A stretch of 44,167 bases of DNA from a virus, in IMG/VR virus record IMGVR_UViG_3300020437_000013, positions 1 to 44,167 of that record; one strand, 5' to 3'. The position numbers were made by a program, and so were the translations under genes. Shown piece after piece: positions 9,551 to 37,333 of the stretch; the stretch's first letter is position 1; the number at the start of each line of letters is the position of its first letter. The notes below the pieces were generated by a model. That model did not search any database. It was not told the DNA's origin and saw only the letters and a program-made list of their open reading frames with translations.

Positions 9551-12112
9551 ATGCCAAGCAATTATAAAACTGTCATAAATTTCAGAGATGGTATTCAAGT
9601 TGATACTGATGACCTGATCTCTAATAATGGTCTGGTAGGTATTGGTAGCACCATACCTAGACAGCAGTTAGATGTCCGTGGAAATGTAATAGTATCAGAG
9701 AACTCAGAATTTAATAATGTAAAAGTTACAGGTATTACCTCATTCCAGAATGATGTTGCTGTTAGCAGTGGATCTTCAGTAGGTATTGGAACTTCAGTTC
9801 CAGAAGCAGCATTTCAAGTTGGTGTTGGAACTACAGGATTTACAGTAAGTGAGACAGGTGTAGTAAATGCAGTAGAATATTACGGTTCTGGTGCAAATTT
9901 AACAAATATTCCCGCATCAGTTTGGACAAATCCTGGTGCAGGTAATACTATTTTTACATTAAAAGATGTAGGAATTGGAACTGAACAACCTAGAGATGGT
10001 GCAGATTTTGGTGTAGGATTTGAAATATTAATGGATGCTGAGAGTGGTATCGGTACATTTGAAGGTATAGTAACAAAAAATATTACAGTATTAAATCAAA
10101 CAGGTGCAGGTCAGGGTAATGTAGAGGCAGAAGTTGGTACATTCTCAACTATAACTGCAACCAGTAATATTACAGGATCATTGATTGGTAATGCTGATAC
10201 TGCTACACTTGCAACCAACTCACAGGGATTAACTGGTACACCTGATATAACTGTTAATAGTATTGTATCTGGAGGTGGAACATTCTCCAACCTTACAGAG
10301 TTTGATTCTATACAAGTATCAGGTGGAATTACAGCAAGTAATGGTATTGTTACTGCAACCACATTTAGTGGAACTGCAACTACATCATTAAACGCATCAA
10401 TAGCTTATGCCATAGGTGGAGATCCAGATATACAAGTAGATTCTGTTGACATCAATGGTACAGCACCTACATTCCTCAGAGGTGCAGGGGTCAGCACAGT
10501 AGGAGAAGATTTAAGAGTTGGAAACTTCTTAGGTGTAGGTAATACTGTATCTGCTGTTGGTGATGCAGGTGGATTTATTGGTACAGTTAGAGTACATAAT
10601 GGTGATCTAATATTAGGTGGAAGTATATCAATCGGTGGTAGTTTAGTAGGTAGCGTTGAACTAGGTTCTACACAAAATATCAATGTACTTAATGTTGGTG
10701 CAGGTTTATCTGTCGCAGGTATATCAACATTCCAAGGAACTGTTACAGGTGGTGCTGACTTTAATGTTACTGGGACTGTAACCGCAGGAGAACTAGATGC
10801 AACTGATAGTTCAAATATTGGTGGAGGACAGACTATTGGTAGTGGTCTAGTTGTTGGTAATACTGTTGCAGGGTCAGATATAAGAGTGTTGAATGGTGGT
10901 GGACTAATCATAGGATCAGGAATTACTATGAATGGTGATATCACTGGTGTTGATGACATTACAGCGACTGGTGCTATTAGTGGTGGTAATATTACAGGTG
11001 CAAATTTAGTTGGATCTAATTTAAATGTTGCAGGTATTTCTACATTAGGTTCTGCAAACTGTAGTAATCTATCAATAGCAGGTGGATTAAATGTAACGGG
11101 TGTTGGAACTATATCAACGGGTCAAATTAAAATTGATGGTCTTACAGGTGTTGTATCTGCTGTTGGATATAGAGCATCAGGTGTTAGTACATTTACTGAT
11201 TTATTGATAACAGGTGGACAGAACACTAGAATGTTCAGTCAATATGTTGGAGTCAATACTGGAGTTCGTAAAATTACTGATGGTGTTGAGATATATCGTA
11301 CACAGTCAGAATTGTTCATGGACGCATACTCTCAGGGTATAGGTATCGGAACAACATCTGGAGACAGATTGATGAACAGTAAGTTATATGTTGGATATGG
11401 TAGAAATGGAAATGCTCTATTAGATTCAGTAAGTATATTTGAGAGTGGTAGTATTGGTATTGGTACAACAGCAGTTGAAGCTACAAGTCAGGGAGTAGAA
11501 GGTGTAGACATCTATAGAAATATTAGATTATTTGGAGGTCACACTGGTATGGGTGGCACTGTGGGTGTTGCTACAAATGTGATTCAAGTTGGATTCAATA
11601 CTACTCAACCTGGTGGTGCATTAGATATGAGATCAGCAGGAGCTCCATTATGTTTACCAGTATGTGAAGGAAATACAGATAATAGTGGTATGTCATTCTT
11701 CCATAGTGATGGAGATCATATCGGTAATATATGGTTCAGTAAGCATGACATGAAACTTAGAGTTGCTATGGGTCAGGGCAGTGCTAACTTCATTGGTATG
11801 GTGTCAGAAACATATGGTAAGACACTTAACGACTGGATGGCGATTAGAGGATTTAAAGGTCCGATTTTTGAAAGTGAGCAAAGTAAAACAAACCAGACAC
11901 CAACATTCCCAGTAGATGAACCAGTTGGTTGGACAACTTCCAACATGGGTTATTTTTCTCCTACACATCAAATACAGGTCTATTGTGCAGATGACCAGTG
12001 GAGATCATTAGTAGGTAGTGCAACTACTGGTTACGAAATAATTACAGTAGGAAATACTGCGGTTCTAAATCTAGTAGGAGTAGGTTCTATTGTATTAGGT
12101 ACATTCAGTTAA
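9551..12112 (+). CDS. repetitive tail-fibre-like structural protein (853 aa)
   Basis: The sequence is dominated by short beta-type repeats: VGIGS/VGIGT, NVAGISTL and ITGSLIG-like units recurring along nearly the whole length. This is the usual signature of long trimeric beta-structured fibre shafts. Opening residues are MPSNYKTVINFRDGIQVDTD; a non-repetitive C-terminal region from about residue 700 (MSFFHSDGDHIGNIWFSKHD) probably forms a tip or attachment domain. Unlike the preceding gene it has no S74 domain. It lies 27 bases after the 1753-aa gene and four bases before the collagen-like gene, so all three are probably one late transcript. Confidence 0.8.
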   Translation: MPSNYKTVINFRDGIQVDTDDLISNNGLVGIGSTIPRQQLDVRGNVIVSENSEFNNVKVTGITSFQNDVAVSSGSSVGIGTSVPEAAFQVGVGTTGFTVSETGVVNAVEYYGSGANLTNIPASVWTNPGAGNTIFTLKDVGIGTEQPRDGADFGVGFEILMDAESGIGTFEGIVTKNITVLNQTGAGQGNVEAEVGTFSTITATSNITGSLIGNADTATLATNSQGLTGTPDITVNSIVSGGGTFSNLTEFDSIQVSGGITASNGIVTATTFSGTATTSLNASIAYAIGGDPDIQVDSVDINGTAPTFLRGAGVSTVGEDLRVGNFLGVGNTVSAVGDAGGFIGTVRVHNGDLILGGSISIGGSLVGSVELGSTQNINVLNVGAGLSVAGISTFQGTVTGGADFNVTGTVTAGELDATDSSNIGGGQTIGSGLVVGNTVAGSDIRVLNGGGLIIGSGITMNGDITGVDDITATGAISGGNITGANLVGSNLNVAGISTLGSANCSNLSIAGGLNVTGVGTISTGQIKIDGLTGVVSAVGYRASGVSTFTDLLITGGQNTRMFSQYVGVNTGVRKITDGVEIYRTQSELFMDAYSQGIGIGTTSGDRLMNSKLYVGYGRNGNALLDSVSIFESGSIGIGTTAVEATSQGVEGVDIYRNIRLFGGHTGMGGTVGVATNVIQVGFNTTQPGGALDMRSAGAPLCLPVCEGNTDNSGMSFFHSDGDHIGNIWFSKHDMKLRVAMGQGSANFIGMVSETYGKTLNDWMAIRGFKGPIFESEQSKTNQTPTFPVDEPVGWTTSNMGYFSPTHQIQVYCADDQWRSLVGSATTGYEIITVGNTAVLNLVGVGSIVLGTFS

Positions 12113-12116
12113 GGTT

Positions 12117-13886
12117 ATGGCAGCACCTGATTGGTCAAATACTACACAAGAATTATTAAAAACATCACAGTATCCAAATAATACTGAGTTTTCATTTGGT
12201 ACTATCAGAGCAGCGATAGGAGATACATCAAAACCTATTTCTGCGTCAGAATTGTATAGAGTTACAGATATAGATGCACCATATAATTACCCTGCACACC
12301 CAACAGCATCCACACCACATCTACCATATATTTTAGATGCTGTAGAGAATGTTGGAGTGCCTACAAGTGGTGCTATATCTCCTCAAGATGTAAAGAATAT
12401 AATAAAAGAGTATGTCATAGAACAAGACCCAAATGCAACTGAAGTACAATTTGATGCAGGTACATTAGTAGGTTCTGGATATACTGTCTCAAATGTAAAC
12501 TGGGGAAATAATCTCAATAGAAATATTACCAAATATCTTAAAATTAGAGGTAGAGTAGTTAGTCCTGATACTTCAATCCCTGCTGTATCCATAGCTAGTT
12601 CTGCATCATCTAATCTTAATCTATTTGTTAATAATTCCCCTGCAGGTATGGGTATCATGGCAGCAGGTGGTGTTAAAGGTTCTGGATCAGGAACTGATGG
12701 TGGTCATGCTATATCAATAACAAATCCCTCTGCACCTGCATCAAGGGTTGTATTTGTAGAGTGTGAAGGAACAACCTCTAAAATATGGGCAGGAGGTGGT
12801 GGAGGTTTTGATGGTATAGATGGTACAGACGGTGTTGATGGAAGTGCTAATGTGTCACCAGGTCAGGCAGGTGTTGATGGTCAACCTGGCGTTGATGGTC
12901 AAGCAGGTACACCAGGTCAACCAGGTTCATCAGGTCAAGATGGAATAGATGGCACACCAGGTTCATCTGGTCAACCAGGTCAACCAGGTCAGCAAACATG
13001 GATTTCATACAACTGGCAAAGAGTTACTACTACAGTACAACAAACTATTCTGTCTTATACTCAAAACACATCAAGACGCAGAGAGTGGTGGTCAAGGTAT
13101 CCTAGTAACCAGTCTACTACACAAGCAACACAACAAACTGCAAATGCTCAACAGTCACAGCAATATGCTATCAATAATCGTGTTGCTATGGCAGGTGGTC
13201 TTGGTGGACAAGGTGGCTCTGGTGGAGGAAAAGGTGCAGGTGGTGGAGCAGGTACTGGTGGACAAGGAGGAAGTAAAGGATTAGGTGGTCAGGGTGGACA
13301 AGGAGGTCTAGCTGGACAAGGAGGTTATAATGGAGTTAAGGGTGTTAAAGGAATAGCAGGCTCTGGGAGTGCAGGTAGAGGTTGGAATAATCTAACTGGA
13401 ACTCTAAATTCCTCTGGTGGTACACCTGGCACACAGGGTACACCTGGTGGTGCAGGGACACCTGGCACACCTGGTACTGCTGCAACTCAAGCAACTCAAG
13501 GGACACCAGGTCAACCAGGTACACCTGGTGGTTCTGGTACTCAAGGAAATCCTGGCACAGCAGGACAACCAGGTCAACCTAAACAGGGTGGTGCTGCTAC
13601 AGATGGTCAACCAGGTCAACCAGGTACACCTGGCACACCTGGTACAGATGGCACAGATGGTGGTGATGGTACACCTGGTACACCTGGCACACCTGGTCAA
13701 CCAGGTACACCTGGCACACCTGGTGGAGATGGACAACCTGGTACACCTGGCACACCTGGTCAACCTGGTGTTGCAGGTGGAGACTGGGGTAAGACGAATC
13801 CTGGTGGAGGTGCTGCAGGTAGAGCTGTGTCTGGTACACCTTATCAAGTTATCCCAAATGGAGGAGACATTCGAGTTATCTACTAA
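12117..13886 (+). CDS. collagen-like tail-fibre protein (589 aa)
   Basis: An N-terminal domain of about 225 residues (MAAPDWSNTTQELLKTSQYP) precedes three low-complexity regions. Block 1 (residues about 230-291) is Gly-X-Y with GQP, GVD and GTP triplets. A Trp/Gln-rich spacer follows (SRRREWWSRYPSNQ), then a Gly-rich block near residues 360-420 (GGQGG type), then a long Gly-X-Y block (435-555) dominated by GTP and GQP triplets. The C-terminus is a short cap (QVIPNGGDIRVIY). Nearly every proline is in the Y position, that is X-Pro-Gly, the context used by collagen prolyl 4-hydroxylases. Collagen-like domains form triple-helical fibres in many phages. The next gene, eight bases downstream, encodes a PKHD-type hydroxylase. 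Confidence 0.85.
   Translation: MAAPDWSNTTQELLKTSQYPNNTEFSFGTIRAAIGDTSKPISASELYRVTDIDAPYNYPAHPTASTPHLPYILDAVENVGVPTSGAISPQDVKNIIKEYVIEQDPNATEVQFDAGTLVGSGYTVSNVNWGNNLNRNITKYLKIRGRVVSPDTSIPAVSIASSASSNLNLFVNNSPAGMGIMAAGGVKGSGSGTDGGHAISITNPSAPASRVVFVECEGTTSKIWAGGGGGFDGIDGTDGVDGSANVSPGQAGVDGQPGVDGQAGTPGQPGSSGQDGIDGTPGSSGQPGQPGQQTWISYNWQRVTTTVQQTILSYTQNTSRRREWWSRYPSNQSTTQATQQTANAQQSQQYAINNRVAMAGGLGGQGGSGGGKGAGGGAGTGGQGGSKGLGGQGGQGGLAGQGGYNGVKGVKGIAGSGSAGRGWNNLTGTLNSSGGTPGTQGTPGGAGTPGTPGTAATQATQGTPGQPGTPGGSGTQGNPGTAGQPGQPKQGGAATDGQPGQPGTPGTPGTDGTDGGDGTPGTPGTPGQPGTPGTPGGDGQPGTPGTPGQPGVAGGDWGKTNPGGGAAGRAVSGTPYQVIPNGGDIRVIY
12804..12990 (+). repeat. collagen-like Gly-X-Y coding repeat, block 1
   Basis: Nine-base units encoding GVD, GQP, GTP and GSS triplets are repeated in frame. 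This block is more varied than the second and is interrupted once by ANVSP. Confidence 0.8.
13419..13781 (+). repeat. collagen-like Gly-X-Pro coding repeat, block 2
   Basis: Highly repetitive DNA built from GGTACACCTGGC and GGTCAACCTGGT type units encoding GTP and GQP triplets. It includes non-triplet breaks (TAATQATQ, KQGGAATD). The near identity of units suggests recent expansion by slippage or recombination, and repeat number may vary between relatives. Confidence 0.85.
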
Positions 13887-13894
13887 ATTACATT

Positions 13895-14494
13895 ATGGCA
13901 TATTATCCTATATTACCCACTCCCACATATGATGAGTGTGACTATGCAACTTGGGAGGGTGGATTCACATCTGATGAGTGTAACAGAATTATTGAAATTG
14001 GAGAATCATCTGATGCTATGAACTCTACAGTTGGTGCAGATGAATCAAGTCAGAGAGCAAATACAGAAATAAGAAAGTCTTTGAACTCATGGATAGGACT
14101 GAATAAAGATACTGAGTGGATATATCAAAGGTTAGGAAATATATGTAGAAGTCTAAATGGATTGCATTGGAGATTTGATATATCAGGATTCGCTGAAGAT
14201 TTGCAATATACAAGATATAATTCTGATGGTTGTTTTTATGGTTGGCATATAGATAATGGTGTAAAGGGTTCTGAATACCCACAACGAAAATTAAGTATCA
14301 CTCTACAGTTATCAGATGCATCTGAATACGAGGGTGGTGACTTTCAAATTCACTCTAGTAAACTTTCAACACTTCCAAAAGAAAAGGGTCTAGTAATTGC
14401 GTTTCCTAGTTACTCATTACATCAGGTCACACCTGTTACAAAAGGAAGTAGAAAAAGTCTGGTAGTATGGTTATGTGGAAAACCATTTCAATAA
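13895..14494 (+). CDS. PKHD-type 2OG-Fe(II) oxygenase, prolyl 4-hydroxylase-like (199 aa)
   Basis: Expected to use 2-oxoglutarate, O2 and Fe(II) to hydroxylate a protein side chain. The iron-binding triad is visible: His118 and Asp120 in FYGWHIDNG and His176 in FPSYSLHQVTPV, with Arg186 positioned to bind 2-oxoglutarate. EYEGGDFQIH between them is typical of the PKHD/PiuC branch, and the length fits a stand-alone catalytic domain. It sits eight bases downstream of the collagen-like fibre gene. The proposal that it hydroxylates the X-Pro-Gly prolines of that fibre is inference from adjacency and chemistry. A host target is the alternative. Confidence 0.85.
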   Translation: MAYYPILPTPTYDECDYATWEGGFTSDECNRIIEIGESSDAMNSTVGADESSQRANTEIRKSLNSWIGLNKDTEWIYQRLGNICRSLNGLHWRFDISGFAEDLQYTRYNSDGCFYGWHIDNGVKGSEYPQRKLSITLQLSDASEYEGGDFQIHSSKLSTLPKEKGLVIAFPSYSLHQVTPVTKGSRKSLVVWLCGKPFQ

Positions 14495-14495
14495 C

Positions 14496-14545
14496 TGTCA
14501 CAAGTGGACTCACACAAAGGGTACAAAATTTGCTATAATAGAGGT
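14496..14545 (+). promoter_or_regulatory. TGTC-box promoter
   Basis: TGTCAC (14496) lies 38 bases upstream of TATAAT (14534-14539), which is followed by AGAGGTAT. The promoter ends almost at the ATG (14546), so the transcript may be nearly leaderless. Confidence 0.6.
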
Positions 14546-15718
14546 ATGAAAAACACACATCTCGAACACTTAGAAGATAATATTCTCAATGGTTCTCCTA
14601 AAGAAACCATAGATTTTCTCAAGTCTTTCGGTCATATGCTGACTGGCAAGAAGTCTAATCTAAAGATAAGTACCAAGTGGGATGGTTCACCTGCTATCGT
14701 GTGTGGTATTGACCCACAGACTGATAGATTCTTTGTTGGTACTAAATCAGTATTCAATAAGTTCAATCCTAAAGTTTGTTATACAGAGACAGATATAGAT
14801 TTATATTATTTTGCACCAGAAGATGAACAGTTAGCAAATAAACTTAAAATATGTCTTAAGTATCTACCTACACTAGGTATCAGGGGTATGGTTCAAGGAG
14901 ACTTGTTATTCACTAATGATACACAATATGCAAATTTAGATGGAGAAAGATATATTACATTTACACCTAATGCTATTACCTATGCAGTTCCCGTTGACTC
15001 TCTCAAGGGCATCAGTATCACAGAGGCAGAGTTAGGTATAGTATTTCATACAGTTTACTTAGGAGACACCATACAGACCTCTACAGCAGGGGTAAATGCC
15101 AAATTAAGGATACCTAGCACAAAAGAATGTTATGTTGCAGATGCTAATTTTGTAGATGAGTCAGGTATTACTAAGTTCAATGTTCGTGATAGTGCTAAGT
15201 ACACTGCTCTTATTAACAGAGCATCAGGTTCAATTCACAAATCAAAAGAGTTTTTAAAACTTATACATGACTATGGCACATCTAAATTCTTGATGGCAAC
15301 ATTGTTCAAACAGTTTTTCAATGAGAGAATTAGAACAGGTCAAGGTATTGTAGATACCCAGAGAGTCGCAGGAGACTTTGCATTATTCTATGCTAGAAAG
15401 ATGGACATAGAAATTCTATCAAAGAAAACAGAGACAACTAAGAAAAAGTATGAGTATATGAAGAAGATGGGTTTGAAATTTATAGAAAAATATCAGTTAG
15501 AAATTTATTTTGTTGTTGCTTCTTACATCTCAGTTCGTAGTGCTAAGAAGATGGTATTAAGTCAGTTGAATAAGGTAGATAGAATAAAAACTTTCGTTAA
15601 CAAAATTCCTTCACAACCAGAGGGATATGTGGTATCATATAATGGTACTAACCTAAAATTTGTTGATGATGATTTTAGGCAAGCAAACATCACTGTTGTA
15701 AAATCATGGACAAAGTAG
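14546..15718 (+). CDS. nucleotidyltransferase-like protein with a KWDG motif (390 aa)
   Basis: STKWDGSPA (Lys44-Gly47) matches motif I (KxDG) of the covalent nucleotidyltransferase superfamily that contains ATP-dependent DNA/RNA ligases and capping enzymes. GMVQGDLLF (about 115-122) is placed like motif III. EGYVVSYNG (from Glu359) followed by LKFV resembles motifs IV and V, with an unusually long helical insert between. An OB-fold domain is not evident. It resembles phage proteins of unknown function that carry a KWDG-type motif. An upstream in-frame ATG at 14504 exists, but the codons between encode the promoter, so 14546 is chosen. The substrate is unknown; adenylation of RNA, DNA or protein are all possible. 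Confidence 0.65.
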   Translation: MKNTHLEHLEDNILNGSPKETIDFLKSFGHMLTGKKSNLKISTKWDGSPAIVCGIDPQTDRFFVGTKSVFNKFNPKVCYTETDIDLYYFAPEDEQLANKLKICLKYLPTLGIRGMVQGDLLFTNDTQYANLDGERYITFTPNAITYAVPVDSLKGISITEAELGIVFHTVYLGDTIQTSTAGVNAKLRIPSTKECYVADANFVDESGITKFNVRDSAKYTALINRASGSIHKSKEFLKLIHDYGTSKFLMATLFKQFFNERIRTGQGIVDTQRVAGDFALFYARKMDIEILSKKTETTKKKYEYMKKMGLKFIEKYQLEIYFVVASYISVRSAKKMVLSQLNKVDRIKTFVNKIPSQPEGYVVSYNGTNLKFVDDDFRQANITVVKSWTK

Positions 15719-15984
15719 CAACATTTAAAGACTTTATTAAGGTTAGAGAATACATCAGACTAAAGTATGATTATTATGCTAGACTAGGTAGGTTCACAGA
15801 TTTATCTCCAGAGGAAAAAATAGAACATGATGCCTGTTGGAAACTTATTAAGGAATTAAAAGGTTTCATGGATAATGTTGAGGAAAACTTTGAAGATCCT
15901 GACGAGTACAAGGACTTATCACTCTTACTTAGTGATAAAGTTATCCCATTTGATATACTTACAACCAGAAAAGATGATGAATGA
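15706..15984 (+). CDS. helical acidic hypothetical protein (92 aa)
   Basis: Begins inside the end of the nucleotidyltransferase-like gene (13-base overlap) and reads MDKVATFKDFIKVREYIRLK. Mostly charged helices (LSPEEKIEHDACWKLIKELK), no membrane segment, no recognised family. The overlap suggests co-translation and a possible partner role for the preceding enzyme. Confidence 0.65.
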   Translation: MDKVATFKDFIKVREYIRLKYDYYARLGRFTDLSPEEKIEHDACWKLIKELKGFMDNVEENFEDPDEYKDLSLLLSDKVIPFDILTTRKDDE

Positions 15985-16099
15985 TTACAAATTAATTAAG
16001 ATGTGTATTAGAATGGTGTTCGAGAAACGATCTGAAGCATCAGCAGAGGAAATTATAAGAGAAGCAAAAGAACTTTATGATGAATTGATGAATTTATGA
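15977..16099 (+). CDS. small helical protein (40 aa)
   Basis: Reads MNDYKLIKMCIRMVFEKRSE and ends AKELYDELMNL, an amphipathic helix pair. Starts eight bases before the previous stop (an ATG at 15974 adds one Met) and ends with an ATGA overlap to the following oxygenase. The function is unknown. Confidence 0.55.
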   Translation: MNDYKLIKMCIRMVFEKRSEASAEEIIREAKELYDELMNL

Positions 16100-16692
16100 T
16101 TACACCAATAGCACAGAAATTTAAAGTCTTTGATGATTTTATCAGTCCTACATATCAAGATATCATAGAACAATTATTGCTGAGTTCAAAAATTCCTTGG
16201 AACTGGCAGGATTCAATGGATTATAAAACAATGGATAAGAGAGGTGGAGGATATCCACAGTTCGTTGTTGATGTATTTGAAGATGGAAATGTATTTGATA
16301 CATCACTCTATCACACTATGATAGGTTTAATGAGTAAAGTGGTAGATGATGTTTTACCAGATTACAGACCAATAAGGATTAGAGGTATATTACAAACACC
16401 AATAAAAGATGACATAATACATTATCCACCACATACAGATACAACTGACTCTGGAGGATTTAGTGCCATATATTATGTTAGTGATGCTACTGGAGATACA
16501 TTCTTATTTAAAGAGAAAGATATTAATGATGAGATAGGAATAGAAAACAGATTTGAATATAAGTGGGAACCAATAGATCGTATATCTCCAAAGAAAGGTA
16601 GATTAATTGTATTTCCATCTAATTTTTATCATGCAGGTTCTCCAACTGAGAGTCAAAGACGAGTGCTAATAAACTTTAATTTTATGTCCTAA
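16096..16692 (+). CDS. 2OG-Fe(II) oxygenase (198 aa)
   Basis: The double-stranded beta-helix motifs of Fe(II)/2-oxoglutarate dioxygenases are present: His113-x-Asp115 in PPHTDTTDSG, distal His179 in FPSNFYHAGSP and Arg189 for 2-oxoglutarate in QRRVLINFNF. FSAIYYVSDATGDTFLF between them is typical of the prolyl-hydroxylase-like branch. It differs clearly from the PKHD protein 1.6 kb upstream, so it is not a recent duplicate. It is coupled to the preceding small gene and lies directly upstream of two halogenase-like genes. The substrate is unknown. Confidence 0.8.
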   Translation: MITPIAQKFKVFDDFISPTYQDIIEQLLLSSKIPWNWQDSMDYKTMDKRGGGYPQFVVDVFEDGNVFDTSLYHTMIGLMSKVVDDVLPDYRPIRIRGILQTPIKDDIIHYPPHTDTTDSGGFSAIYYVSDATGDTFLFKEKDINDEIGIENRFEYKWEPIDRISPKKGRLIVFPSNFYHAGSPTESQRRVLINFNFMS

Positions 16693-16696
16693 ATAA
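16689..16696 (+). promoter_or_regulatory. possible late promoter
   Basis: CTAAATAA lies just before the halogenase-like gene, matching the motif at 4224-4231. It is very close to the ATG (16701), which would leave almost no leader, so it may be coincidental with the stop codon TAA. Confidence 0.3.
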
Positions 16697-16700
16697 TTTT

Positions 16701-18077
16701 ATGAGAAAAATTGCGATTGTAGGTGCTACACCTGAGTCATTCATACAGTTGGCATTGTTAGTAAATAACAGAAGGTATGATGGCAAAGAAAAATATGGTG
16801 ATGATGAGTTCACCCTAATACATGACCCTGACAAAGTATATCCATATATGCTAAGTGGTATAGGAGTTGCATTTCAAGAAGTATTAGAAAGAGAAATATA
16901 TTTTACAAAAAGGTGGTTGGATAAGTATTGTGACGGTGTAGATAGTTGTGGATATAAGTATGTTGGTTGGGGTAACAGGAGAGATAAGAACTTTATGGTA
17001 ACAGGTTGTAGCAATACATTTGATATTGAAAAATTTAGACATCATTTCTTAGAAGATGGTGGTAAAATATTTGGAAAAAATGTAAGTATAATACAACAAA
17101 AAATAGATTCATTTTCTGTTACTGATGATAAGTGTTTAATTAATAATAATGAATATGATTATGTGATAGATTGCACAGAGAAAAATCCATTAGGTTGGGA
17201 AATGGATTATATGCAACCTAGTGTGACATTTAGTAATAGTGCAATAATGATAGAGATACCAGAAAAGGGACACTGGAATTATACTATTGAATATGCTGCT
17301 AAACATGGTCACATAGTAGGTTTACCATTGCGTGACAGTCAAAGATGGATATACTTATATGATAATACTATTTCTCATGAACTAGAGGTAGTAGAGGATT
17401 TTAAAGAGATATTTCCTAATTTTAAATTTGATGAGACAGTCAATGGTGGACAAAGAACATTCTTTTATAAAGAACACTCATGGATACCACACATATCAAA
17501 TTATATAATCCACCCTGAGAACAAAAGATATATGCGAAATGGTACTGCATTATTAAACATAGAACCTGCAAGTCCTGGAACCAGTGCAGAATCAACACAT
17601 TTTATTGCAGAGCAAATATGTAGATATCTTTATAATGATAATGCTAGAGAAAGAGAGGTGCATGACCATATGTTACAGTTACAATATGGTAGTTATATTA
17701 TACAAACTTTGCAGTCTTTTTTATGTTTTACTTATCAATATGGTTCGAGACATGACACACCATATTGGAATAGAATTAAAGAGGAAGCAACTGAGTACTT
17801 AAACAGTCCGATATTCTCACATCCTGGAGCATTTACAGGAAATAATTTCTTAGATAAAATAGTAAGTGATACATTTACGGAAGAAGATTTTAGAATAGCA
17901 CATCATTCACAAAATGCTAGTGGAGAATTAATACTACCATATTCTTGGATGAATAATTCAAATATGTTTTATGAGTATTCAATAGGTTTAGGTAGTCCGT
18001 ATGCACATTTATTATCAACTATGGGGGAGACTGACCCGCCAGAACCATTTGGAACAATAGGGTATGATTGCGTATGA
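16701..18077 (+). CDS. divergent flavin-dependent halogenase-like protein (458 aa)
   Basis: Overall length and layout follow tryptophan-halogenase-type flavoproteins: a beta-alpha-beta opening MRKIAIVGATPESFIQLALL, an internal YDYVIDCTEKNPLG strand and a late NIEPASPGTSAEST segment like the conserved flavin-contacting loop. Key elements are eroded: the dinucleotide motif lacks its glycines (GATPES instead of GxGxxG), and the WxWxIP motif appears replaced by QRWIYLYDN. It may be a non-catalytic partner of, or a specialised paralogue to, the intact-looking halogenase it overlaps by four bases. The family assignment is motif-based. Confidence 0.6.
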   Translation: MRKIAIVGATPESFIQLALLVNNRRYDGKEKYGDDEFTLIHDPDKVYPYMLSGIGVAFQEVLEREIYFTKRWLDKYCDGVDSCGYKYVGWGNRRDKNFMVTGCSNTFDIEKFRHHFLEDGGKIFGKNVSIIQQKIDSFSVTDDKCLINNNEYDYVIDCTEKNPLGWEMDYMQPSVTFSNSAIMIEIPEKGHWNYTIEYAAKHGHIVGLPLRDSQRWIYLYDNTISHELEVVEDFKEIFPNFKFDETVNGGQRTFFYKEHSWIPHISNYIIHPENKRYMRNGTALLNIEPASPGTSAESTHFIAEQICRYLYNDNAREREVHDHMLQLQYGSYIIQTLQSFLCFTYQYGSRHDTPYWNRIKEEATEYLNSPIFSHPGAFTGNNFLDKIVSDTFTEEDFRIAHHSQNASGELILPYSWMNNSNMFYEYSIGLGSPYAHLLSTMGETDPPEPFGTIGYDCV

Positions 18078-19576
18078 ATATAGTAATAGTTGGAGGAGGT
18101 ACATCTGGATTAGTTACTGCTGCATTATTCAATGTATTTTGGAAAGATAAAGTAAATATCTCATTATATTATAATCCAGAGAATCAAAGTATAGGTGTAG
18201 GGGAGGGAACTACACCTAGTTTTATTGATGTGTTTAATGAAACTTTGGGATATAGTACAGAAGATGCTATCAGAGAATTAGATGCAACAATTAAGTTAGG
18301 TGTATTGTTTAAAGATTGGATTCCAGACACAGAATACTATCATGGATTTGTGGAAGTTGCGAATGATGAGACAAATAATAGAAGTGATAAGTTATCAAGT
18401 AATGTAAGTTCATTTTATTCTATGTTAAATGGACATTATAATGGTGGTATCAATTTCAATGAAGCAACCAATACTATACCTACTGAATTAGATAAACATG
18501 ACTTTGCGTTTCATATAACCACAAATAAATTATGTGATTTTCTGTTTAAATATCTCAAGGGTAGAGTAAACATCATAGAAGATAAAATAAGTGATGTGAA
18601 TACTGATGGTAAAAATATACAGAGTATTATATGTGAAAAAAGTGGAGAAGTAAGTGCAGATTTATTTGTAGATGCAACTGGACTTGATGCTATGTTACTT
18701 AACAAGTTAGATGGTGCAGAGTGGGTAGATTTATCCCAGTATTTACCATTAGATAGGGCAATACCACAGAAGATAAAAAATAATAGTGATTTTATTCCAA
18801 GTTATACACTAGCAAATGCAACTAAACATGGGTGGATTTGGCAAATCCCGTCACAAAATGAATATGGTACGGGTTATTTGTATTCATCTAAGTTTACTAC
18901 TGATGAAGAAGCAAAAAATGATTTCAATAACTGGTTAAATATAAATCACTCAGAAAAATTAAGTGAAGAACCTAGAATAATTAAATGGAATAGTGGGTAT
19001 CAAAAAAGAGCATGGATAGGTAATTGTGTAGCAGTAGGTTTATCAGGTGGATTTATTGAACCATTAGAAGCATTAACTCATCAATATCTAACCTTTATGG
19101 TAGAAACATTTATGAGTTTAAATTCTACTCTTAAAATGTTAGATTACAATAGAGATAGATTCAATATGGTTCAGAATAGAATATTATTTGACTACACACA
19201 GTTTTTAAACCTACACTACTGCACAAATAGAACTGACTCTAAATTCTGGAAACACATGAGAGATAATAAAACTGACTGGGTAAAAACTATGGAGGAGAAG
19301 TTACAACATGAATTTTTAGATGTATTTGATACTGATGATATGTTAGATTACTGGGGAAATGATAATTACATACAGGTAATGAAAGGTATCAATTTGTTTA
19401 ACACTAAAGCAATCGAGGATTATATGTGGTCAAGAAAAAATCCAGAATTATTATATGAAGATGCTAAACAGCAACATGACTATATCGAGGATTATAAAAG
19501 TAAAACTGTTATGGTAGATCATAAGGAATATCTTGAGACAATAAAAAAATCGTCACACTTACCCTACCTAGTGTAA
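18074..19576 (+). CDS. FAD-dependent tryptophan-halogenase family protein (500 aa)
   Basis: Expected to use reduced flavin, O2 and chloride or bromide to halogenate an aromatic ring. It has the FAD-binding GGGTSG near residue 10, the family GVGEGTTPSF loop, a lysine at about 74 in ATIKLGVLFKDW at the position of the catalytic Lys of PrnA-type enzymes, and the diagnostic WxWxIP motif (GWIWQIP). Near the C-terminal side, GLSGGFIEPLEA matches the conserved flavin-pocket loop. The length is normal for the family. The ATG at 18074 overlaps the previous stop; a TTG at 18068 would add two residues. The gene needs a flavin reductase, not seen here, so a host reductase is implied. Substrate unknown. 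Confidence 0.8.
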   Translation: MNIVIVGGGTSGLVTAALFNVFWKDKVNISLYYNPENQSIGVGEGTTPSFIDVFNETLGYSTEDAIRELDATIKLGVLFKDWIPDTEYYHGFVEVANDETNNRSDKLSSNVSSFYSMLNGHYNGGINFNEATNTIPTELDKHDFAFHITTNKLCDFLFKYLKGRVNIIEDKISDVNTDGKNIQSIICEKSGEVSADLFVDATGLDAMLLNKLDGAEWVDLSQYLPLDRAIPQKIKNNSDFIPSYTLANATKHGWIWQIPSQNEYGTGYLYSSKFTTDEEAKNDFNNWLNINHSEKLSEEPRIIKWNSGYQKRAWIGNCVAVGLSGGFIEPLEALTHQYLTFMVETFMSLNSTLKMLDYNRDRFNMVQNRILFDYTQFLNLHYCTNRTDSKFWKHMRDNKTDWVKTMEEKLQHEFLDVFDTDDMLDYWGNDNYIQVMKGINLFNTKAIEDYMWSRKNPELLYEDAKQQHDYIEDYKSKTVMVDHKEYLETIKKSSHLPYLV

Positions 19577-23621: not shown

Positions 23622-23786
23622 ATGTCTCTATTTGATACAACCAACCGCACAGCATCAGTTACATTCTATCGTAACGATATGGGACTGATTACTGTTGAAG
23701 TCCCTGCAACCAACTATGATAGTGCTAAGAGAACTGTCTTAGAACAATATGGTAATGTTGACATTAAGAGGGTTAATTTAAATTAA
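23622..23786 (+). CDS. small hypothetical protein (54 aa)
   Basis: Reads MSLFDTTNRTASVTFYRNDM, then ITVEVPATNYDSAKRTVLEQ, ending VDIKRVNLN. The strand-then-helix pattern is similar to the previous small protein, so the two may be distant paralogues. Stop overlaps the methyltransferase start (TAATG). Confidence 0.6.
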   Translation: MSLFDTTNRTASVTFYRNDMGLITVEVPATNYDSAKRTVLEQYGNVDIKRVNLN

Positions 23787-25126
23787 TGAAAGATACCATA
23801 TTATACGGAGACTGTAAGGACACTCTCAAAACCATAGACTGTAAGGTACAAATGTGTGTAACAAGTCCACCTTACTATGGTCTAAGGGATTATGGAGGGG
23901 AGTCCGATCAAATAGGACAAGAGAGTACACCCGAAGAATATATTAATAACTTAGTGGAAGTATTCCGAGAAGTTAGAAATGTATTATCTGATGATGGTAT
24001 CCTATGGGTAAACATAGGGGATAGTTATTATAACTATAGACCTGGAAAAGGTCAAGGATTAGTTAAGCAATCAGTATCAAAAACTAATCAAGATTTACCT
24101 ACTAAATGTAATCGTAGAGCAAATAAATTAGAGGGATTAAAAGAGAAAGATTTAATCGGAATCCCTTGGTTATTGGCATTTGCACTACGCAATGATGGTT
24201 GGTATCTTAGACAAGATATAATATGGCATAAACCTAATCCTATGCCAGAGTCAGTTAAAGATAGGTGTACTAAATCACATGAATACATTTTTCTTTTAAG
24301 TAAAAATAAGAAGTATTATTATGACAATGAAGCAATCAAAGAACCCGCAAAAGACTGGGGAACAAGAGATCGCACAAAGGGTAAGTACCATAATAGTGGT
24401 ACTGGGTTATCTCCTCATACTGGTTTATCCAAGTCTTATGACAGGAAAAATAAACGATCTGTTTGGTTAGAACCAGACAAATCACATGGTAAGTATGGAA
24501 CTCAAGAGAATGAATCAAAGCATAGACAGGGAATCCACGCAAATAGAGGGGATAATCTAGTTGCAGTAAGAACCAAGTTACCAACACAAAAACAACTTGT
24601 TGAGTATTTGAGATCAAGAACCAAAGCAAAAACATTAGCAGAAAATACTGATATTCCATTAACAAAGATAGAACATTGGTTCAGATTTGATGAGTCTGGA
24701 TTTGCATATCCAAGTATAGAAGATTGGAATAAAGTAAAAGAACTTTTAAATGATTATTCAAAAGAATTTAATATAATAAATGAAGGATTAACTCATTATG
24801 AATTAAAAACAGATGAAGTTGTATCATCAGATAAAAAGAATAAACGATCTGTTTGGTCAGTAACTACTAAACCATATAAGGGAACTCATTTTGCAGTATT
24901 TCCACCTGACTTAATCGAACCTTGCATATTAGCAGGGAGTAGAAAGGGAGATATAATACTTGACCCATTTATGGGGTCAGGAACTACTGCAATGGTATCA
25001 AAGCAATTAGGTAGGCATTACATAGGGTGTGAGTTGCATGAGTCTTATGCTGAGTTGATCGACAAGAGAGTGCCAGTTGACAAACCTATACACAATCCGT
25101 TAACTATGGCATTAAATATGTCATAA
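23786..25126 (+). CDS. beta-class DNA methyltransferase with an inserted HTH-like segment (446 aa)
   Basis: Transfers a methyl group from S-adenosylmethionine to DNA. VTSPPYYGLRDYGG (residues 25-38) is the catalytic motif IV of the SPPY type (N4-cytosine or N6-adenine), and DPFMGSGTTAMVS near residue 392 is the SAM-binding motif I. The order IV before I defines the beta class. An insertion of about 130 residues is flanked by duplicated KNKRSVW motifs (about residues 222 and 351). It contains a helix-turn-helix-like stretch (TKAKTLAENTDIPLTKIEHW). No restriction enzyme gene is adjacent, so it is an orphan, probably protecting phage DNA. The next gene is ArdA-like, another antirestriction function. 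Confidence 0.85.
   Translation: MKDTILYGDCKDTLKTIDCKVQMCVTSPPYYGLRDYGGESDQIGQESTPEEYINNLVEVFREVRNVLSDDGILWVNIGDSYYNYRPGKGQGLVKQSVSKTNQDLPTKCNRRANKLEGLKEKDLIGIPWLLAFALRNDGWYLRQDIIWHKPNPMPESVKDRCTKSHEYIFLLSKNKKYYYDNEAIKEPAKDWGTRDRTKGKYHNSGTGLSPHTGLSKSYDRKNKRSVWLEPDKSHGKYGTQENESKHRQGIHANRGDNLVAVRTKLPTQKQLVEYLRSRTKAKTLAENTDIPLTKIEHWFRFDESGFAYPSIEDWNKVKELLNDYSKEFNIINEGLTHYELKTDEVVSSDKKNKRSVWSVTTKPYKGTHFAVFPPDLIEPCILAGSRKGDIILDPFMGSGTTAMVSKQLGRHYIGCELHESYAELIDKRVPVDKPIHNPLTMALNMS
24449..24467 (+). repeat. 19-base direct repeat, copy 1
   Basis: AATAAACGATCTGTTTGGT encodes NKRSVW within the methyltransferase. An identical copy lies at 24839-24857, 390 bases downstream and in the same frame. Confidence 0.85.
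24839..24857 (+). repeat. 19-base direct repeat, copy 2
   Basis: Identical to 24449-24467. The two copies bracket the inserted HTH-like segment, as expected if a segment was acquired or duplicated by recombination. This copy precedes the GTHFAVFPPDLIEP segment typical of the family and is probably the original. Confidence 0.85.
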
Positions 25127-25148
25127 TAGAAGTATAACATACAAGAGA
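25122..25148 (+). promoter_or_regulatory. promoter -10 region
   Basis: CATAAT (25122-25127) followed by AGAAGTATAACATACA, then AGAGAGAAATTA before the ATG at 25156. No TGTC box at the usual position. Confidence 0.5.
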
Positions 25149-25155
25149 GAAATTA

Positions 25156-25596
25156 ATGGGTAAACCAACTGGACAAATGCAAGAAGCGACTCAAGAGAAA
25201 CTAGACGGTCTTAATTTACTCTACAACTGGGATTATAATGAAATGTGTAGGTTTATTGAGAATTTTTCAGAGGAAGAGTTCAGAGATCATTATGAAACAT
25301 ATCACAGATTATGTGAAGATTATAGCAAAGAGTTGGTAGATAATTTCGGAAATCACTTTGACATGGACGCAGAAGCATTTGAACATTTTGAAGAATTGTA
25401 TCAAGGTCACTATGAGACAGGTGGAGACTTTGCAGAATCCATTTGTCAAGAACTTGGTTACATAAGAGATTTACCTGCATGGGTTTCAGTTAATTGGCAG
25501 GAGACATGGGATAATGCATTATCATACGATTACTTTGAAATTGACTGCGATATGTCTGATTACACTTATGGTCACATATTCAGAAACAGTTGGTAA
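25156..25596 (+). CDS. ArdA-like antirestriction protein (146 aa)
   Basis: ArdA proteins are acidic DNA mimics that block type I restriction enzymes. The C-terminal half shows the family pattern: EELYQGHYETGGDFAESICQ, LPAWVSVNWQETWDN, LSYDYFEID and a terminal GHIFRN. The whole protein is strongly acidic. It is shorter than the three-domain plasmid ArdA, having an N-terminal helical part in place of the first domain. Its location directly after an orphan DNA methyltransferase fits a restriction-evasion module. A second, divergent copy lies at 31807-32241. Confidence 0.75.
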   Translation: MGKPTGQMQEATQEKLDGLNLLYNWDYNEMCRFIENFSEEEFRDHYETYHRLCEDYSKELVDNFGNHFDMDAEAFEHFEELYQGHYETGGDFAESICQELGYIRDLPAWVSVNWQETWDNALSYDYFEIDCDMSDYTYGHIFRNSW

Positions 25597-34760: not shown

Positions 34761-34942
34761 ACAAAACATATCACATCTACTTTGAGGATAAGTGTTTGTT
34801 TAAGAACCTAGATCAGCATGAATTTGATGTCATCTGGGGGAGAATCTATAGATCTTACCATACAGATAGTATTACATATGAATGTGTTGGTACAGATTGT
34901 GACATTGTTGATAGTGGTGTTTTAGCAGATGCTTCGTACTGA
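34757..34942 (+). CDS. small hypothetical protein (61 aa)
   Basis: MNKTYHIYFEDKCLFKNLDQ then HEFDVIWGRIYRSYHTDSIT, ending DSGVLADASY. The pattern (YxIYxxDKCLxxxLxxxEFxxxW) resembles short proteins seen in T4-like cyanophages. Coupled to the AbrB-like gene (ATGA) and overlapping the next by 14 bases. Confidence 0.65.
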   Translation: MNKTYHIYFEDKCLFKNLDQHEFDVIWGRIYRSYHTDSITYECVGTDCDIVDSGVLADASY

Positions 34943-35522
34943 AGGTTATACATGGGGTCCTTACCTGTGGCGAACTACAATACCTTGGGATGTAGTTAGT
35001 GTAATACTTAAGAGGGCGAACTCTTATCGTGGTGAGCATACTGCTACACCTATGCTACCTTTTAACTTTGATGACCAATGGCATCTACCTAAAGACACAC
35101 AGGATTGGTTCTGGGGGATCTTTAAACCCCATCTTAAAAAGTATTTGGCAGGTTATAGTCGGCACAATCAATTACCTGCTCCTACCGATGATGATATAAG
35201 TAACTGGGCATTCGACCATATATGGGTTAACTACTACAAAGAACATGATATGACAGCACTCCACAATCATGTAGGAGACTTGTCTATTGTGTTGTACCTA
35301 CAAATACCTACCTATACGGACAAGGTGCTTGGAACTGCTCCTGCACCTGGTTCTATCACATTCTCATGGGGAGACTCTAAGAAGACATTTGAACCAAAGG
35401 AAGGAGAGTTGTTTATATTCCCATCAGGTTTACATCATATGGTGATGCCACATAAGACTAAGGGTGCAGAAAGAGTATCCTTATCAGCAAACCTCTACTA
35501 CAACGCACCTTTTCATGGATAG
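34929..35522 (+). CDS. 2OG-Fe(II) oxygenase-like protein, PF13759-type (197 aa)
   Basis: HDMTALHNHVGDLSIVLYLQ, PGSITFSWGDSKKTF and GELFIFPSGLHHMVMPH match the putative 2OG-Fe(II) oxygenase family seen in T4-like cyanophages. Candidate iron ligands are in HNH (112-114) and the distal His of GLHH, with an Arg in AERVSLS for 2-oxoglutarate. An H-x-H occurs where other families have H-x-D. The N-terminus (YTWGPYLWRTTI) matches that of the next gene, so the pair arose by tandem duplication. Confidence 0.75.
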   Translation: MLRTEGYTWGPYLWRTTIPWDVVSVILKRANSYRGEHTATPMLPFNFDDQWHLPKDTQDWFWGIFKPHLKKYLAGYSRHNQLPAPTDDDISNWAFDHIWVNYYKEHDMTALHNHVGDLSIVLYLQIPTYTDKVLGTAPAPGSITFSWGDSKKTFEPKEGELFIFPSGLHHMVMPHKTKGAERVSLSANLYYNAPFHG

Positions 35523-36099
35523 TTTACATACATGGGGTCCTCCTATATGGCAAACCTCTCTTGATTATAGTATTATAGATGGTTTATTAGAGCGAGGCGA
35601 CGCAATTCGTAACCATGAACAGTTCAATGCTGAGATAGACTTAGCAATGAATACACATGATGAATGGAATTACCCACCAGAGGTTGTGCAATGGTTCTCT
35701 GAGGCGATTAAGACTAAGGTAGTTGATTATATGCAGATATGGGCAAAGCATCTAGGATGGACATATAACAAGTGGTTATCAGACTGGCAGATTGATAGTC
35801 TATGGATCAACTATATGCAGAAGTATGACTGTAACCCATTACATGATCATAAGGGAAATGTAAGTTTTATTGTTTATCTAAACGATGTACCTGACCTTAA
35901 GACAGAGAAACAAAGAATGAATATGACTAATAACGGACCTGTGCCAGGTTCTGTTATGTTCTGTCATAATGATCATAGAAAGTTTTTCTTTCCTAACAAA
36001 GGTGAGTTCTTTTTATTCCCTTCTAACACTCTCCATATGGTTGTACCTTATAAGAGCGACCTCACTCGGATATCCGTATCAGGAAATATTATCTTCTAA
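35515..36099 (+). CDS. 2OG-Fe(II) oxygenase-like protein, tandem paralogue (194 aa)
   Basis: Starts MDSLHTWGPPIWQTSLDYSI and overlaps the previous gene by eight bases; an in-frame GTG at 35464 would give 17 extra residues encoded by the neighbour's 3' end. Key segments: NPLHDHKGNVSFIVYLN (H-x-H), PGSVMFCHND, GEFFLFPSNTLHMVVPY and TRISVSGNI. The plan is the same as the preceding gene with substantial divergence, so the two may have different substrates or act as a heterodimer. Confidence 0.75.
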   Translation: MDSLHTWGPPIWQTSLDYSIIDGLLERGDAIRNHEQFNAEIDLAMNTHDEWNYPPEVVQWFSEAIKTKVVDYMQIWAKHLGWTYNKWLSDWQIDSLWINYMQKYDCNPLHDHKGNVSFIVYLNDVPDLKTEKQRMNMTNNGPVPGSVMFCHNDHRKFFFPNKGEFFLFPSNTLHMVVPYKSDLTRISVSGNIIF

Positions 36100-37325: not shown

Positions 37326-37333
37326 TATAAATA
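37326..37333 (+). promoter_or_regulatory. T4-type late promoter
   Basis: TATAAATA matches the T4 late -10 consensus exactly, with A-rich sequence in front. Start of transcription is expected near 37339, just upstream of the gp25 gene. Confidence 0.8.

Follow-up and report, generated by a model that had tools for sequence, protein, structure and literature searches.

The question raised by this stretch of viral DNA is why a phage should carry, directly behind its fibre genes, a dense series of genes for enzymes that modify side chains. The window analysed here is the whole of IMG/VR virus record IMGVR_UViG_3300020437_000013, 44,167 nucleotides (44 kb) long and possibly a fragment. Its long fibre (phrog_529), baseplate wedge proteins and a Kyano_Gp96 protein mark it as a marine T4-like phage of the Kyanoviridae type. 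No close relative was found among the cultured phage records, the top halogenase match being 42% identical (Synechococcus phage S-SRM01). A first-pass annotation had offered, as one reading of the gene series, a decoration of the fibres by proline hydroxylation, aromatic halogenation and nucleotidylation. Of these, proline hydroxylation is the one that the present analysis supports as a reading: a collagen-like fibre gene is followed immediately by a gene for a 2-oxoglutarate (2OG)-Fe(II) oxygenase with a predicted prolyl-hydroxylase fold, the collagen has proline at one position only, and in viruses this oxygenase family is linked to genes for collagen-like or glycine-rich proteins.

The collagen-like fibre

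The fibre protein scores 46.4 bits against PF01391 (cut-off 27.2). It consists of a non-repetitive N-terminus of about 225 residues, which has no relatives in the phage records, followed by 76 Gly-X-Y triplets in six runs, triplets being counted in runs of six or more. Proline occurs at Y in 30 of the 76 triplets (39%), and at X in none.

This is an animal-like pattern. Human collagens have 33–42% proline or hydroxyproline at Y, and bacterial collagens have proline at X and threonine at Y (PMC8968730). It is also rare among viral collagens. A neutral sample was collected by scanning viral contigs with a pattern that fixes two G bases of every third codon, and is thus blind to proline. In it, 70 collagen-like open reading frames (ORFs) have ten or more prolines. 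Across these ORFs, a median fraction of 0.11 of the prolines was at Y, and only one ORF, on contig L246, exceeded 0.9. This collagen (one proline at X, 50 at Y) has a member of the window oxygenase family 776 bp downstream. It is one of two adjacent collagen-like genes (L246 626–8637), the other having proline at X only (119 and 0); the oxygenase follows the Y-type gene. A collagen-like ORF on another contig (L019 1–6900) has 615 triplets, of which 373 carry proline at Y and none carries it at X; the oxygenase family is absent from the sequence available.

The pattern could be the product of expansion of a Gly-Thr-Pro or Gly-Gln-Pro DNA repeat and have no functional meaning. The repeats are indeed of low complexity, and Y-proline collagens found by pattern without a nearby enzyme do exist. 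However, Y-only proline is kept in every member of the window clade: the X residues have changed widely among the relatives (Thr, Gln, Ser, Asn, Gly), while proline at Y, and its lack at X, have persisted. We regard repeat expansion as quite unlikely.

Family and fold of the oxygenase

The oxygenase ORF starts eight bases past the stop codon of the fibre. It had been called a PKHD hydroxylase, and this identification holds: it scores 59.7 bits against PF13640 (cut-off 27), the iron ligands are present, and the nearest solved chains by sequence are the PKHD-type hydroxylases 3dkq and PiuC. It also matches PHROG 61 (E=8e-34), and profile searches detect the PBCV-1 enzyme vCPH (5c5t, E=7e-12) and the prolyl 4-hydroxylase (P4H) of Bacillus anthracis (5hv0, E=1e-6). 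The iron ligands H118, D120 and H176, together with R186, are invariant among 24 relatives; R186 is likely to be the 2OG-binding residue.

The predicted model has a mean predicted local distance difference test score (pLDDT) of 85. Its best structural match is the Pseudomonas EF-Tu prolyl hydroxylase 4iw3 (Z=20.2 over 186 residues), followed by an algal P4H (19.7), PHD2 (about 19), the PBCV-1 viral collagen P4H (17.9) and the anthrax P4H (16.9). PKHD-type enzymes score about 17–18, and several families are tied within about 1–3 Z. As modelled, the protein has a protein prolyl-hydroxylase fold, which by itself does not prove the substrate.

Linkage to collagen-like and glycine-rich genes

With the enzyme as query, 76 viral loci were retrieved, which represent 38 non-redundant lineages at 80% identity. 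These contain 16 collagen-like ORFs, in 15 of the 38 lineages. None of the 16 is more than 2 kb from the enzyme; 15 are upstream on the same strand, and the roughly 265 kb that lie 2–8 kb away contain none. Assuming uniform placement, this has p=5e-8, or p=1e-5 without the window clade; the lineages are not entirely independent of one another. Fibre and oxygenase are separated by just 5–9 bp in most of the window clade.

In the collagen-free lineages, many of the ORFs upstream of the enzyme encode proteins that are rich in glycine but of a different kind; of three tested, one matches Gly_rich_2 (PF21722). Taking as glycine-rich any ORF of at least 120 residues with at least 18% glycine, 26 of 177 ORFs within 2 kb of the enzyme qualify, compared to 2 of 160 farther off (p=4e-6), and the result is stable at thresholds of 15–25%. 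A glycine-rich fibre-type ORF lies within 2 kb in 26 of the 38 lineages. Permutation of gene order gives the same picture, with glycine-rich ORFs 1.96 gene steps from the enzyme and the other ORFs of the same loci 3.67 (p=2e-4). Cellular homologues (80 loci from a genome collection) have no such linkage: only 4 of 697 neighbouring ORFs are glycine-rich. The single collagen neighbour among them (no proline at X, 33 at Y) is 5 bp upstream of a 72% identical oxygenase on contig L350. This contig is filed under an archaeal metagenome-assembled genome (Euryarchaeota RS368) and looks like a misbinned phage contig of the window clade.

The arrangement also occurs in cultured phages. In S-MbCM6 a protein with 39% glycine is encoded 23 bp upstream of the oxygenase homologue, and in S-RSM4 and S-CAM8 a glycine-rich protein is encoded 1.6–1.8 kb upstream; Syn30 and P-SSM7 have no such glycine-rich arrangement at the homologue. 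On contig L030, a PF13640 oxygenase outside the window-family profile also abuts a collagen with mostly Y-proline. In a tree of 54 relatives, the window clade groups with enzymes that stand beside Y-proline collagens, a grouping that is weakly supported.

The family was also looked for from the side of the collagens. In the neutral sample, only 7 of 128 collagens have the window oxygenase family within 3 kb, and most viral collagens thus do without it.

A number of observations weigh against the view that these oxygenases hydroxylate proline in the fibres. A glycine-rich neighbour is missing in twelve of the 38 lineages, and in some cyanophages the homologue is next to uvsW, away from fibres. 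Several Y-proline collagens found by pattern (among them L019, with 0 prolines at X and 373 at Y; L059, with 0 and 36) lack such an oxygenase in the sequence available, and the proposition that a Y-proline collagen always implies a nearby hydroxylase was rejected. The converse, that every collagen linked to a 2OG enzyme is of the Y-proline type, was rejected too: two related oxygenase clades adjoin collagens with proline at X and Thr or Lys at Y. The linkage thus reaches beyond collagens of the Y-proline type to glycine-rich fibres more generally, and different lineages may modify different residues. The active site is a further point. In collagen P4Hs, a lysine ten residues after the distal histidine binds the C5-carboxylate of 2OG. 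The window enzyme has the invariant R186 at this position and is on that account not classed as a classical collagen P4H; it may still work like one.

Two other explanations bear on these points. One is that the oxygenase modifies some other fibre residue (Lys, Thr, Asn or Asp at Y), creating attachment points or contacts and not triple-helix stability. Lysyl hydroxylases share arginine as the 2OG-binding residue, viruses have a precedent in the lysyl hydroxylase of mimivirus, and the related enzymes beside Gly-Pro-Thr and Gly-X-Lys collagens have almost no Y-proline to act on. In the window, however, lysine occupies just 4 of the 76 Y positions, and it is Y-proline that the clade conserves throughout. 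For this fibre we think another target unlikely.

The second is that the oxygenases and the halogenase are auxiliary enzymes that tune host metabolism (2OG and nitrogen signalling, DNA repair, small molecules) and have accumulated in a hypervariable fibre region. This is the standard account of cyanophage 2OG oxygenases, which are held to modulate 2OG and NtcA or to serve DNA repair (PMC3037559), and it would accommodate the homologues that have uvsW as a neighbour or belong to 2OG clusters with no glycine-rich genes nearby. However, passive accumulation predicts neither a concentration of glycine-rich genes within 2 kb directly upstream nor Y-only proline, and the fold is that of a protein hydroxylase. 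We give this explanation a low probability.

Proposed maturation of the fibre

On balance, we consider it probable, with moderate confidence, that the collagen-like fibre and the oxygenase behind it are a substrate–enzyme pair. The analysis shows the modelled fold and the catalytic residues, the adjacency of the two genes and its recurrence, the proline pattern and purifying selection; that the fibre is the substrate, which residue is modified and to what end are inferred. The enzyme, a phage PKHD/P4H-type 2OG-Fe(II) oxygenase, would probably be expressed from the same operon as the fibre. No T4-type late promoter (TATAAATA) was found upstream of the pair, the single match in the window being at 37326, and scans for promoters and terminators gave counts no higher than in shuffled sequence. 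The most likely reaction is hydroxylation of the prolines in the X-Pro-Gly repeats of the upstream fibre, either ahead of trimer assembly or in the course of it. With hydroxyproline at Y, the triple helix (or a polyglycine-II-like packing) would be stabilised as it is in animal collagen, and this would account for a fibre that can afford proline at Y only. The pairing recurs across many phage lineages, which points to a chemical finishing of the fibre by some of the phages themselves, comparable to that of collagen in animals. More generally, fibre maturation may be the function of part of the numerous 2OG oxygenases in marine phages.

Collagen-modifying hydroxylases are already known from giant and algal viruses. 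Mimivirus encodes collagen-like proteins together with a 2OG-Fe(II) enzyme that modifies collagen, L230, as is proposed for the window. L230 is, however, a bifunctional lysyl hydroxylase/glycosyltransferase of a giant amoebal virus, whereas the window enzyme is a single small domain of a tailed phage, its suggested target is proline, and its gene is directly behind the fibre gene. PBCV-1 vCPH and the B. anthracis P4H share the fold of the window enzyme, which differs from them in having arginine at the lysine position and is closer in sequence to the PKHD-type enzymes. The nearest relatives by sequence (3dkq, PiuC) and by fold (4iw3) have the H-D-H core in common with it. These are cellular enzymes, and the cellular homologues searched lack the glycine-rich or collagen linkage seen for the window family. 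Finally, the window enzyme matches the cyanophage 2OG-Fe(II) oxygenases (PHROG 61, T4-GC 412), three of which have the glycine-rich upstream gene described above. They are usually explained as metabolic genes, and no published substrate was found for them. In the literature searched, outside which most subscription papers lie, no proposal of phage fibre hydroxylation was found.

Many 2OG-Fe(II) oxygenases are encoded by cyanophages and pelagiphages, and guesses at what they are for have so far been based on metabolism. The linkage to fibres offers a different reading that is directly testable, with S-MbCM6, S-RSM4 and S-CAM8 available as cultured phages with the same arrangement. If it is true, phage tail fibres contain hydroxyproline-stabilised collagen, although bacterial collagens are usually said to lack it, and small soluble collagen-modifying enzymes become available.

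Organisation and conservation of the gene cluster

The genes from 9551 to 19576 are all on the + strand and tightly packed (Table 1). The first-pass annotation was right about the order of genes behind the fibres and about the second 2OG-Fe(II) oxygenase; the start that it gave for the series, 12117, is that of the collagen-like fibre itself and not of an enzyme. Of the two small proteins it listed, one is conserved, and the other is a doubtful gene, recognised in relative L126 (97% identity) and in none of the other relatives.

Table 1. Genes of the fibre region, with the evidence for each assignment
Feature	Position	Strand	Evidence or remarks
Fibre protein, 853 residues, upstream of the collagen-like fibre	9551..12112	+	phrog_3269 tail protein, E=1.5e-12; conserved in clade
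Collagen-like fibre, 589 residues, proposed substrate	12117..13886	+	PF01391, E=3e-12; Gly-X-Y count
2OG-Fe(II) oxygenase, predicted prolyl-hydroxylase fold, proposed fibre hydroxylase	13895..14494	+	PF13640, E=6e-16; predicted model
DUF6267 (KWDG) protein	14504..15718	+	PF19782, E=2e-105
Small protein, 92 residues, 13 bp overlap with DUF6267, conserved in clade	15706..15984	+	
Small ORF, 74 residues, doubtful gene	15875..16099	+	Recognisable in 97% relative L126 only
Second 2OG-Fe(II) oxygenase, 198 residues	16096..16692	+	PF13640, E=4e-8; phrog_274, E=1e-35
Degenerate flavin-halogenase-like protein	16701..18077	+	phrog_2928, E=4e-25; PF04820, E=0.0035 (below cut-off)
Intact flavin-dependent halogenase, PrnA/VirX1 type, 10 bp overlap with previous gene	18068..19576	+	PF04820, E=2e-82

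The same gene order is kept in about ten related marine contigs, at 44–97% identity. Comparison with three relatives gives ratios of nonsynonymous to synonymous substitution (dN/dS) of 0.06–0.36 for all five enzyme genes, the degenerate halogenase included, indicating purifying selection. With this recurrence and selection on every enzyme gene, the order exceeds chance. There are variants: in L132, L133 and L134 the first oxygenase is tandemly duplicated and the copies have diverged, and in some relatives the intact halogenase is replaced by another halogenase-like gene. Viral contigs with close homologues of the halogenase, of DUF6267 and of the second oxygenase belong essentially to the window clade alone.

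The halogenase pair

Two flavin-halogenase-like proteins had been predicted, and one of them is an intact enzyme. It retains GxGxxG, the active-site lysine, WxWxIP and the Glu of EPLE, and it matches PrnA and VirX1 (6qgm, E=5e-39). The protein encoded before it has lost these motifs, with GATPES for GxGxxG, no lysine, GHIVGLPL for WxWxIP and no EPLE. Its gene is nevertheless under purifying selection (dN/dS 0.07–0.22), and its product is possibly a partner of the intact halogenase. Tandem pairs of halogenase-family genes are also found in Syn10, the source of VirX1, and in P-TIM40, where the partners keep most or all motifs, unlike the degenerate one in the window. In Syn10 (L003 11502–13094), the hypothetical gene after VirX1 is a second halogenase with all motifs (PF04820, E=5e-105), overlapping VirX1 by 11 bp; the tandem of P-TIM40 is similar.

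Whether the halogenase acts on the fibres is less clear than for the oxygenase. Among 12 cultured lineages examined, six have a halogenase no more than about 5 kb from genes for fibres, fibre assembly or collagen: S-SRM01, Syn10, P-TIM40, S-WAM1, P-SSM2 and the actinobacterial phage DSL-LC01. The fibre genes of Syn10 are unlabelled, and it is counted here because its gene order is shared with S-WAM1 and P-TIM40. In the remainder (HTVC008M, S-H38, S-B64, S-SSM5, S-PM2/Syn1 and, by a stricter reading, S-SSM7) the halogenase is in replication, terminase or other regions. In DSL-LC01, a freshwater Actinomycetia phage, the halogenase is one gene downstream of two collagen genes, and the whole row (L438 1082–7624) reads two collagen genes, a hypothetical gene, halogenase and glycosyltransferase. 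With about half of the lineages on each side, a role in the virion is compatible with these positions but not shown by them. A possible correlation between conserved tryptophan residues of the fibre and presence of the halogenase was dropped, as in a cleaner alignment none of the 20 columns that separate relatives with and without the enzyme is tryptophan; two of the relatives without it carry another halogenase-like gene.

Clusters containing halogenases have been interpreted as secondary-metabolite or polysaccharide chemistry, in particular the jumbo cyanophage clusters in which genes for halogenase, 2OG enzymes and carbamoyltransferase occur together (PMC7824862). By analogy, the window genes might decorate a surface glycan or make a halogenated small molecule, with carbamoyl, sugar or amino-acid chemistry alongside the halogenase and 2OG enzymes. 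VirX1 halogenates small aromatic molecules in vitro (PMC8407142), and the S-SSM7 cluster holds sugar enzymes. No carbamoyltransferase, sugar or precursor enzymes were found among the Pfam and PHROG matches of the window cassette, however, and the pairing of oxygenase and collagen would be left unexplained. We consider this very unlikely.

Modification of the virion may extend beyond hydroxylation of the fibre, with the halogenase and the second oxygenase also taking part. A wider virion-modification cassette that includes halogenation is possible, if thinly supported. The broadest form of the proposal, that tailed phages have a fibre-maturation chemistry in which 2OG oxygenases hydroxylate collagen-like or polyglycine-rich fibres, that in the window clade the halogenase pair and second oxygenase modify the same fibres, and that much of the unexplained oxygenase set of marine phages serves the virion and not host metabolism, is put forward tentatively and is on present evidence doubtful.

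DUF6267 and other genes

The third modification that had been suggested, nucleotidylation, was rejected. The protein proposed for it, described as KWDG nucleotidyltransferase-like, belongs to DUF6267, a known family with 471 phage records. In P-HM1, S-CAM9 and HTVC008M, its genes are among those for uvsX, gp41, mazG and cytidylyltransferase, a replication-region context. It is a core gene of T4-like cyanophages, and probably a passenger in the window operon. A position mostly away from fibre genes in relatives, which had been named as refuting the idea, is found for DUF6267 and not for the first oxygenase, while the halogenase is evenly divided. The KWDG motif and a later EGYV...LK stretch of DUF6267 are invariant among nine relatives, and would be consistent with a nucleotidyltransferase of the ligase type. 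Searches revealed no link to any protein nucleotidyltransferase, and no solved structure matched a model that is too poor (pLDDT 60) for its fold to be read.

The second oxygenase matches PHROG 274, which is labelled DNA endonuclease V, yet by Pfam it is a 2OG-Fe(II) oxygenase. This label, also present in many cyanophage annotations, looks wrong. Two more overlapping 2OG-Fe(II) oxygenase genes (PF13759) are found at 34929–36099, upstream of baseplate wedge genes, so that the 44 kb encode at least four 2OG enzymes. At 23786–25596 there is a DNA methyltransferase gene, followed by one for a homologue of an anti-restriction protein (phrog_36653).

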